A DNA stretch of 21,928 bases, taken from positions 1-21,928 of the IMG/VR virus record IMGVR_UViG_3300048555_000067; one strand, written 5' to 3'. The translations under genes were made by a program, and so were the position numbers. This document shows, piece by piece, positions 3,131 to 5,296 of the stretch. The DNA comes from a virus. The notes beneath the pieces were generated by a model. That model made no database searches. It saw only the letters and a list, made by a program, of their open reading frames with translations, and was not told the DNA's origin. Positions within the stretch are counted from its first letter, which is position 1. Each line of letters starts with the position of its first letter.

Positions 3131-3158
3131 GATACCCCTTGATATATCTTGGGGTATC
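3131..3158 (+). promoter_or_regulatory. inverted repeat centred on the -35 box of promoter 3
   Basis: GATACCCC (3131-3138) and GGGGTATC (3151-3158) are perfect 8-bp arms around TTGATATATCTT, itself nearly symmetrical (GATA-TATC). The TTGATA box sits in the centre. The position relative to the promoter equals that of the repeat at 1865, but the arms differ. It may be an operator, or a terminator for the 2521 transcript. Confidence 0.5.
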
Positions 3159-3166
3159 ACTATATG
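3139..3166 (+). promoter_or_regulatory. promoter of the repeated module, copy 3
   Basis: TTGATA (3139-3144), a 16-bp spacer and TATATG (3161-3166) are followed by TATTAGGTAAG and ATCAAAAATTCAAAAA, matching copy 1 closely. It drives the 3209 gene and probably those to about 4310. Confidence 0.6.
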
Positions 3167-3208
3167 TATTAGGTAAGATCAAAAATTCAAAAATCAGGAG
3201 ATCAAAAA

Positions 3209-3784: not shown

Positions 3785-3802
3785 GGGGGCCATCGCGCCC
3801 CC
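3785..3802 (+). terminator. GGGGGC-CATCGC-GCCCCC hairpin
   Basis: A perfect 6-bp GC stem with a 6-base loop lies just after the 3209 gene, in a CCAACGGGGG context like the two TTCG hairpins. No T-run follows (ACCAACCAAGGAG), and the next ribosome site starts 10 bases later. It is more likely an mRNA-stabilising or insulating element than a terminator. Confidence 0.5.
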
Positions 3803-4025: not shown

Positions 4026-4186
4026 TGATCCCCTGCCCAGAATGTGATTACACAGGCCACAAAGGCCGAGTAGAAAAAACATTGTACCAGCGTTTCGGTG
4101 GAACGCTGGAGCCTGTTGGAGAATGGGTCGATTGCGATTACTGTGATGGCAGTGGCGAAGTTGAGGAGGATGAAGATGAGCGATGA
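4022..4186 (+). CDS. DnaJ-type zinc-ribbon miniprotein, 54 aa
   Basis: This short frame encodes a 54-residue acidic protein with CPEC at residues 5-8 and CDYCDGSG at 38-44. The second matches the CxxCxGxG repeat of the DnaJ cysteine-rich domain exactly, and the two pairs could bind one zinc. A linker with YQRFGGTLEPVGEW separates them, and the end is very acidic (GEVEEDEDER). It starts with tandem ATGs that overlap the previous stop by 4 bases. The last 11 bases overlap the next gene. Such single-zinc miniproteins in phages often act as protein or nucleic-acid binders, but no role can be assigned here. The conserved cysteine spacing makes a chance frame unlikely. Confidence 0.65.
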   Translation: MMIPCPECDYTGHKGRVEKTLYQRFGGTLEPVGEWVDCDYCDGSGEVEEDEDER

Positions 4187-4310
4187 GAAAGTAGTAAAAT
4201 TTCCCAAACCTCTTTCTAACATTGATCGGCAGTTTCTTGAGCTTGAAAAGCAGCGTGAATTGATCAGGGAGCAGGCGCGACAGCTTGCTTCTGTTCACAA
4301 GCCCAAATAG
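4176..4310 (+). CDS. hypothetical helical miniprotein, 44 aa
   Basis: The frame is open from 4098, but the ATG at 4176 is chosen because a strong GAGGAGGA site precedes it by about 6 bases, inside the end of the zinc-ribbon gene. The product is a short N-terminal strand-like segment (EKVVKFPKP) followed by a long amphipathic, glutamine- and arginine-rich helix (residues 16-40). It has no cysteine and no membrane segment. It ends 6 bases before the TATAAT box at 4315, closing this cassette. Function is unknown. Confidence 0.55.
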   Translation: MSDEKVVKFPKPLSNIDRQFLELEKQRELIREQARQLASVHKPK

Positions 4311-4314
4311 CCGC

Positions 4315-4341
4315 TATAATGCCCCTAATTCCACTTAGGGG
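4315..4341 (+). promoter_or_regulatory. TATAAT box with adjoining inverted repeat over the ribosome site
   Basis: A perfect TATAAT (4315-4320) is followed one base later by CCCCTAA (4322-4328), a 6-base loop and TTAGGGG (4335-4341). The right arm contains the AGGGGG ribosome site of the 4352 gene. The repeat therefore covers the expected transcription start and, if transcribed, would hide the ribosome site in a hairpin. The best -35 candidate (TTCACA, 15 bp upstream of the box) is weak. Either a DNA operator or an RNA control element is possible. Confidence 0.45.
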
Positions 4342-4351
4342 GTGATGACCC

Positions 4352-4828
4352 ATGATCGATCCTGTGAGCGCCTACGCTGCCGCCACAACCGCCTATAAAG
4401 GTGTTAAAATGCTGCTGCAGGCTGGCCGTGAAATCGAAGACGTTTCAAAGCAGCTTGGGTCTTGGTATAGCGCAGTGGCTGATATTACTCGCGCCGAATC
4501 ACAGCGCAAGAACACAACGTGGTTGGAAAAGAAACAGCACGGCGAGGCATCAATTGAGCAAGAGGCGATGGACATCACGATCCGCGCCAAAAAATTAAAA
4601 GAATTTGAATATGAAATTCGCGTAATGCTGGACTATAGATTTGGTTTAGGCACCTATGAAGGTATGCTTGATATGCGCCGAAAAATTAGGGCAGAGCGAG
4701 AGCGCACGGTATATGCCGCAATGGAGAGCAAGCGCCAAATGGCAAACAATCTTGCTATCACGGGATTGGCTGTGGGCATTGTGGCCGTTTTGGGAGGCGG
4801 CATTTATTTGCTGACGCTTGTGTTATGA
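4352..4828 (+). CDS. conserved phage protein with C-terminal membrane anchor, 158 aa
   Basis: The N-terminus (MIDPVSAYAAATTAYKGVKM) and the following AGREIEDVSKQLGSWYSAVADI resemble a small protein family I recall from many marine phages, including cyanophages; its function is not known. Residues 60-130 are helical and highly charged. Residues 133-157 form one hydrophobic segment (LAITGLAVGIVAVLGGGIYL), so the protein is probably tail-anchored with most of it in the cytoplasm. The start follows AGGGGGTGATGACCC, part of an inverted repeat, and a TATAAT box lies 32 bases upstream. The stop overlaps the next start as ATGA. Its place next to two small exported-looking proteins suggests an envelope-associated role, possibly in lysis or superinfection exclusion; both are guesses. 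Confidence 0.7.
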   Translation: MIDPVSAYAAATTAYKGVKMLLQAGREIEDVSKQLGSWYSAVADITRAESQRKNTTWLEKKQHGEASIEQEAMDITIRAKKLKEFEYEIRVMLDYRFGLGTYEGMLDMRRKIRAERERTVYAAMESKRQMANNLAITGLAVGIVAVLGGGIYLLTLVL

Positions 4829-5034
4829 CAGGCTCTTGGGTGCTGTACATTATTATATTCTTTGTAAATGGTGAAACGATTGTGTTGGAAAATGATGAAA
4901 AATTTAAAACAGAAGATCAGTGCTGGGCCGCAGGCATGATAAAGGGGCCGTATCTTTTAGAGAAAACTTCACATATTTTTGGCGTACCTGTGAGGGGCAG
5001 TTTTTCATGCCAGAAGGCAGGGCAGAATGCTTAA
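4825..5034 (+). CDS. small hydrophobic-N-terminus protein, 69 aa
   Basis: Residues 4-14 (SWVLYIIIFFV) form a short hydrophobic stretch, followed by a strand-rich domain with two cysteines (33 and 62) that could make a disulphide outside the cytoplasm. It starts by 4-base overlap with the membrane-anchored 158-residue protein and overlaps the next gene by 8 bases, so all three are probably co-translated. The hydrophobic segment is short for a transmembrane helix, so it may be an uncleaved anchor or just a core strand. The function is not recognised. Confidence 0.6.
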   Translation: MTGSWVLYIIIFFVNGETIVLENDEKFKTEDQCWAAGMIKGPYLLEKTSHIFGVPVRGSFSCQKAGQNA

Positions 5035-5296
5035 AGTTTTATTGATGTCCGTAACGTTGGCTGGCGTTGCCAATCCCACGCACGTTCAGTGCCACCTGTG
5101 GAAAAGGCTTACCGACAAAAATACGGGTCAGAAAATTTGCGTCTATCGCTTTACAGCGGGGTATGGAGGTCTGGCCTATCATTACCCAACTCGCAGCTTC
5201 AAAGAGTGTCCCAAGGTCTTTTCCTGCGTCTATGAAAAGAAAGACAAGCGCCCAACGCTAAACGAGATATTGGATGGGTTAAGGGACGGCTTCTGA
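5027..5296 (+). CDS. small secreted-type protein with signal peptide, 89 aa
   Basis: The N-terminus (MLKVLLMSVTLAGVANPTH) reads as a signal peptide with a plausible cleavage after GVA. The remainder contains four cysteines (22, 38, 61, 67), an even number suited to disulphides in the periplasm. There is no good lipobox, so a lipoprotein is unlikely. It overlaps the previous gene by 8 bases, and its TGA stop is one base from the stop of the convergent late operon. A spanin-like or envelope-modifying role is conceivable from the context, but no spanin hallmark is seen. Confidence 0.6.
   Translation: MLKVLLMSVTLAGVANPTHVQCHLWKRLTDKNTGQKICVYRFTAGYGGLAYHYPTRSFKECPKVFSCVYEKKDKRPTLNEILDGLRDGF

Follow-up and report, generated by a model that had tools for sequence, protein, structure and literature searches.

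The stretch of DNA analysed here (the window) is a virus record of 21,928 bases. Its minus strand carries structural-type genes and an endolysin gene, and its plus strand carries small genes up to position 5296. In the related contig G002, genes for a helicase, a Cas4-type exonuclease, a Sak4-like protein and a single-strand-binding protein lie further up the strand on which the homologous gene is found, and the "early" strand is named by this gene content. The features around the start of the gene at 4352 are listed below. The two arms were recognized from sequence and fold, the loop, the ribosome site and the -35-like hexamer from sequence, and the small competing hairpin from folds; the transcript start is a prediction.

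3161-3178, plus strand: nearest upstream promoter-like repeat, TATATGTATTAGGTAAGA, one of three copies (0.03 expected) and a possible source of read-through RNA
4170-4310, plus strand: small upstream open reading frame (ORF) of about 46 aa, ending in ASVHKPK and a stop, the last gene of the early-type operon
4292-4320, plus strand: conserved promoter block at -60 to -32 relative to the ATG, with 1 of 29 columns variable over 23 loci
4294-4299, plus strand: TTCACA, a -35-like hexamer matching at 5 of 6 positions, with a short spacer of 15 nt, inside the end of the upstream ORF
4315-4320, plus strand: TATAAT, the -10 box, invariant in 23 loci and followed by G at 4321
4322-4328, plus strand: left arm CCCCTAA, variable in relatives
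4327, plus strand: predicted transcript start, an A 7 nt past the -10 box
4329-4334, plus strand: loop TTCCAC
4335-4341, plus strand: right arm TTAGGGG, with a fifth G at 4342
4337-4346, plus strand: ribosome site AGGGGGTGAT, strong and overlapped by the right arm
4340-4351, plus strand: competing small hairpin GGGT-GATG-ACCC, possible in both kinds of RNA
4352-4828, plus strand: ORF of 158 aa (phrog_32327), predicted to be all-helical with a mean pLDDT of 75.6
5027-5296, plus strand: ORF of 89 aa, the partner gene, with a homolog downstream of the 158-aa gene in the tabulated loci with enough sequence

The 158-aa ORF belongs to a PHROGs family without an assigned function. Searches of Pfam and NCBIfam with this ORF gave no match, and the best match of its model in the PDB fold search reached only E 0.65. 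Among the viral matches (E ≤ 0.001), the named ones were uncharacterised proteins and the rest carried no name. A hydrophobic C-terminal segment, seen by eye, is the basis for labelling the product a membrane protein. An extra ORF of 69 aa was found at 4825-5034, between the 4352 and 5027 genes, and was present in some but not all close relatives.

The plus strand reads TAG (4308-4310), CCGC, TATAAT, G, CCCCTAA, TTCCAC, TTAGGGG, GTGATGACCC and ATG at 4352. The inverted repeat CCCCTAA-N6-TTAGGGG spans 4322-4341, and 4342-4351 is the remainder of the ribosome site and the spacer. The sequence-only reading of this DNA had placed and described the box, the repeat and the overlap with the ribosome site correctly. 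AGGGGGTGAT can pair with ten bases of the 16S tail, one of them as G-U. The exact repeat occurred once and was still the sole match when up to 3 mismatches were allowed, with 0.53 expected by chance. TATAAT by itself is no rarity in the window (4 on the plus strand and 8 on the minus strand); the rare thing is the combination. This was seen in a looser scan of the layout, in which a TANNNT box was followed 0-3 nt behind by a left arm of 5-7 nt, a G-rich complement and the start codon of an ORF no shorter than 40 aa. The 4352 site was its only match in the window. Among six pieces of two related contigs the scan found only the homologous site, in L108 (G001) and L111 (G002), and gave zero matches in L107, L109, L110 and L112. 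A search of the window against the riboswitch, thermometer and leader families of Rfam 15 at the gathering score gave no match, and a riboswitch or thermometer reading was dropped on that account.

Relatives were collected by a search of viral contigs with the 158-aa protein, which gave 290 stretches, of which the best 80 were used. A scan with the ribosome-block pattern contributed five more contigs (L088, L090, L091, L101 and L102), giving a comparison set of 85 loci besides the window. A promoter-block scan contributed only L105, which was excluded from the counts because its sequence stops within the leader; loosening the block pattern brought in no further contig. The window and 22 of the 85 loci have TATAAT at -36 to -38. 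It was absent from -60 to -1 in all 62 of the other loci that were long enough, L051 being too short.

Variable columns were counted over the window and the 22 loci, with gaps at contig ends (e.g., L090) counted as variable. The upstream stretch and the ORF showed 116 of 219 and 336 of 477 variable columns, respectively. By comparison, 1 of 23 columns varied from -60 to -38 and 0 of 6 in the -10 box, and the right arm with the ribosome site (-17 to -6) showed 0 of 12. The promoter block is thus far more conserved than its surroundings, though it is partly coding. The left arm (5 of 8 columns variable) was no better kept than the loop (4 of 6). In the left half-site, C4322A was found in 1 of 23 loci and T4326C in 4 of 23, and one base was deleted in 7 of 23, altering the spacing. 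The CCC adjoining the -10 box was kept in all 23 loci.

Conservation of the pairing in relatives, a check that the sequence-only reading had put forward, was examined over eight pairs in 8 distinct rows (10 given), with a divided outcome. Three central C-G pairs and one A-U pair were constant in 8 of 8 rows, but the other four pairs were missing in some rows, the outermost existing in L001 only, and no pair had changed on both sides in the 8 distinct rows. L001 adds an eighth pair, and L014 allows a shift to C-G pairs in another register. The evidence for the hairpin is weaker than that for conservation of the promoter block.

Upstream of the 4352 gene lies what is likely a real promoter. A scan with the sigma-70 consensus did not list the site because it has no acceptable -35 hexamer at 16-18 nt. 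Group members carry TATAAT with a G or C behind it, not the T4 late box, TATAAATA. TGTTCACA was found at the same distance in L091, whose annotated upstream ORF stops short of it. A recurrent late-promoter motif was considered and dropped: TGTTCACA-N11-17-TAYNRT occurred once per contig in the 10 contigs searched and is therefore not a repeated phage promoter there.

In bacteria, transcription commonly begins about 7 nt past the -10 box. The base at this distance is A4327, and an A was found there in 8 of 8 distinct aligned rows. Since the predicted start follows CCCCT, RNA from this promoter would carry too little of the left arm for the stem to form; the hairpin would therefore be possible only in RNA begun further upstream. 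The sequence-only reading, which proposed an RNA hairpin that shuts translation, did not take this consequence into account. Its proposal is plausible and backed by the genomic context, but with a start at A4327 the hairpin could act on read-through RNA only.

Candidate sources of such RNA lie upstream, where near-identical promoter-like repeats, TATATGTATTRKGTAAGA, precede small ORFs at 734-751, 1899-1916 and 3161-3178. Going by these three copies, read-through into the 4352 leader is plausible. Palindromes were seen by eye upstream of two of the copies, over the -35 region, at 3131-3158 (GATACCCC-N12-GGGGTATC) and 1866-1890 (ATCTGGG...CCCAGAT), and may serve as the operator for a regulator of early genes. 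Also seen by eye, between plus-strand genes, were GC-rich hairpins resembling GGGGC-TTCG-GCCCC, at about 1476-1488, 2214-2227 and 3785-3802, with no run of T behind them.

The isolated 34-nt leader was predicted to fold into exactly the CCCCTAA/TTAGGGG hairpin at -10.5 kcal/mol. This fold is ordinary for its composition (z -1.16), and 30 of 200 shuffles fold as well. In long RNA the predicted stem at 4322-4341 overlaps AGGGGGTGAT. The cost of opening 4337-4343 was computed for read-through and short RNA as the mean over many transcript ends. The costs for the window, L001 and L010 were 10.5, 13.7 and 7.0 kcal/mol in read-through RNA and 7.7, 6.5 and 6.5 kcal/mol in short RNA, respectively; in L010 the contrast was negative in some contexts. 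For 11 of 11 representatives of the TATAAT group, opening the site cost more on average in read-through RNA than it did in short RNA, by 0.5 to 7.2 kcal/mol. In L091 and L013, both in late orientation, the costs were 6.7 and 9.9 kcal/mol in read-through RNA and 6.5 and 7.5 kcal/mol in short RNA, respectively. The contrast of 2.4 kcal/mol in L013 is near the 2.7 of the window because a CCCCTAA further upstream in L013 can pair there. This upstream CCCCTAA, in the leader at 3609-3675 of L013, could form a long-range pairing with the ribosome site, closing a large loop, with a read-through cost of up to 12.2 kcal/mol. The GGGT-GATG-ACCC hairpin masks part of the ribosome site in short RNA too. 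Overall, the predicted folding contrast is modest and depends on context.

As a masking control, random segments were put between the box and the ribosome site in 2000 trials per locus. For the window, 90 of 2000 random segments masked the ribosome site as well as the natural one, as did 361 of 2000 shuffles of the segment. The corresponding numbers of random segments for L001, L017, L014, L021, L016 and L006 were 1, 13, 68, 104, 244 and 245 of 2000, respectively.

Protein similarity to the window and to G002 was used to class the neighbouring genes in the relatives. Of the 22 contigs with TATAAT, 19 had early genes in the same orientation as the gene and/or structural genes in the opposite one, whereas late genes lay on the same strand in 57 of the 63 loci without it. 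The other 6 loci without TATAAT showed only early genes on the opposite strand (2) or nothing (4). Because the group was defined by TATAAT, gene position is the independent fact. An endolysin gene or its neighbour (phrog_6637) followed downstream on the same strand in 33 of the 63. Two named phages agree. In Limnohabitans phage DC31, counting downstream from the homolog, the third gene encodes an L-alanyl-D-glutamate peptidase. In Roseobacter phage CRP-5, a putative lytic transglycosylase is encoded on the strand of the homolog, which comes four genes after it. The gene thus has a late-strand position in most relatives seen, and in this lineage it would have been flipped onto the early strand.

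Among the remaining contigs with TATAAT, L006 gave no information, and two contigs of about 6 kb, L088 and L101, were conflicting. L088 has a TATAAT-type leader, yet head-type late genes lie upstream on the same strand; L101 has such a leader, yet early genes are convergent downstream. These two contigs are either chimeras or real rearrangements.

The nearest thing to a control is provided by L013 and L091, in which the gene pair lies behind a large structural-strand gene, with early genes convergent. The large upstream gene product of L091 is 95.6% identical to the protein of G002. Both loci keep the ribosome block TTTAGGGGGTGGTAACCC, with TACAGT in place of TATAAT and no adjacent CCCC. A tree was built from 63 distinct coding sequences, with identical ones merged, L051 and the truncated L090 left out, and the root at the midpoint. 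The TATAAT label required two changes on it, one gain and one loss, so the association between box and position does not reflect many independent events. L013 was nested within the TATAAT group (support 100/99). Given the midpoint root and the long branch of L091, the direction of change is one that we infer. L013 and L091 have nearly identical leaders in spite of their different proteins, and the leader of L013 may therefore have been exchanged by recombination and not have decayed.

The layout was also searched for in viral contigs in general as TATAAT-N-CCCCY-N4-14-RGGGGG, together with three control scans; the figures are samples among the matches listed. Distinct sites were counted without the 4352-gene group, with a following ATG ORF of at least 50 aa as the criterion. 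Among the matches listed, 13 of 78 layout sites were followed by such an ORF, compared with 5 of 80 when the arm was moved to 12 nt (p 0.047) and 2 of 81 when it was moved to 7 nt from the box (p 0.002). When a scrambled hexamer took the place of TATAAT, the figure was 7 of 85 (p 0.15, not significant). When ATG, GTG and TTG starts were counted, the figures among the matches listed were 16 of 100 sites before removal of duplicates, and 14 of 80 against 11 of 88 in the 12-nt control, where ATG alone gave 13 against 5. The excess of the layout before ORFs in other phages is thus modest and suggestive only. ORFs preceded by the layout encode an HNH/NUMOD4 protein (L146), an endonuclease VII-like protein (L178), an FRG-domain protein (L140) and a DUF1643 protein (L188). 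In L141, L146, L178, L188 and other unrelated contigs, TATAAT stands directly before a C-rich arm complementary to the ribosome site of an ORF, and several of the ORFs of unrelated layout contigs resemble mobile or recombination endonucleases.

The best single reading of the site is that TATAAT is the private promoter of a relocated late gene pair and that the hairpin silences translation from read-through RNA, as in T4, although we put this at somewhat short of an even chance; a promoter plus an inert hairpin comes close behind. Polymerase arriving from the upstream early-type operon would make mRNA with both arms, the hairpin would cover the ribosome site, and little 4352 protein would be produced. 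When the TATAAT promoter fired, RNA would begin at about A4327, inside the repeat and without CCCCT, so that no hairpin could form and the gene would be translated. The layout, the conserved promoter block and the association of the layout with gene position are observed, while the start site, the timing of the promoter, upstream read-through and the effect on translation are inferred. We counted in favor of this the layout itself, unique in the window and in two long relatives, the gene positions (19 of 22 against 57 of 63), the promoter block (1 of 29), the lack of TATAAT and CCCC in L013 and L091, the sign of the opening cost (11 of 11) and the logic of T4 e and I-TevI as described in the reports cited below. 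Counted against it were the absence of compensatory change, a left arm as variable as the loop, the small contrast in some haplotypes, the contrast of L013 being about that of the window, masking by random loops, the absence of a good -35, the contexts of L088 and L101, and a history with a single gain and a single loss. An ordinary sigma-70 promoter could also be active early, which would defeat a lock on timing.

The strongest competitor, which we regard as a serious though lesser possibility, is that the promoter of the relocated gene is real and the hairpin is a by-product, without a lock function, of a C-rich stretch beside a very G-rich ribosome site. This would fit a conserved promoter block next to a left arm that is not conserved, the absence of covariation, an unexceptional fold (z -1.16), the small folding contrast in L010, L006 and L018, and the ORF-proximal rate among the matches listed, which with a scrambled hexamer (7 of 85) did not differ significantly from that with TATAAT (13 of 78, p 0.15). 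However, it does not readily account for CCC beside the -10 box in 23 of 23 group loci and its absence in late-orientation contigs, or for masking in L001 and L017 that is far better than with random loops (1 and 13 of 2000). The hairpin might instead shut the gene on a polycistronic RNA and be opened by ribosomes ending at TAG 4308-4310. That stop is only 11 bases ahead of the left arm, and the upstream ORF was kept in the group loci inspected, but translational coupling of this kind leaves the conserved TATAAT and its restriction to the early position unexplained, and ribosomes at the stop would be near enough to touch the arm only briefly. We consider it quite unlikely. Least likely is the operator at the start site that the sequence-only reading offered as its other option, in which a dimeric repressor on CCCCTAA-N6-TTAGGGG would block the promoter. 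A near-perfect palindrome does lie just downstream of the -10 box; even so, 7 of 23 loci have half-sites spaced differently by one base, other loci carry mutations in the left half but none in the right half (the ribosome site itself), and no second copy exists in the window at up to 3 mismatches. The operator was dropped as the main reading because its left half and spacing vary while its right half is constant.

Read-through RNA silenced by a hairpin has known parallels. The T4 e, soc, 49 and I-TevI mRNAs sequester the ribosome site and/or the start codon in a helix; for T4 e, the structure arises in long early transcripts, and RNA begun at either of two late promoters is without its 5' part (PMC3014915). 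I-TevI is under the same control as T4 e, similar arrangements occur in other homing endonuclease genes, and genes of the I-TevI type are late genes carried on long early or middle polycistronic transcripts (PMC2988022). As in these cases, RNA started upstream could fold over the ribosome site of the 4352 gene, RNA from the near promoter is predicted to be without the 5' strand, and a gene that is late in relatives stands at the end of an early-type operon. Unlike T4 e and I-TevI, however, the phage and the gene are unrelated, the box is TATAAT and not TATAAATA, and the hairpin is weaker and variable. In IS10 and IS50, transposase is protected from outside promoters, because read-through RNA folds over the ribosome site and RNA from the inner promoter does not. 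Here too only read-through RNA would mask the ribosome site, but IS10 and IS50 are mobile elements, with low transposition rather than timing as the aim. A literature search aimed at T4-type control, not at this phage, found no account of this marine phage site.

If silencing of read-through RNA is the true explanation, a device documented in T4-type phages would extend to an unrelated marine phage lineage, and the same gene in two orientations, with and without the lock, would offer a comparative case for testing the purpose of the hairpin. The layout is also a sequence signature that can be searched for. If this explanation is false, the site would be an ordinary promoter with a G-rich ribosome site. 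A broader scenario, which we consider rather unlikely, is that the pair was flipped from a late into an early operon, that the lineage acquired the promoter-plus-hairpin lock and lost it on flipping back in L013, and that the device is general, should the layout before HNH, endonuclease VII-like and other genes of unrelated contigs count. If so, these phages would represent a natural evolutionary experiment, in which the lock exists to stop translation of late genes from early read-through and was reached independently of T4.
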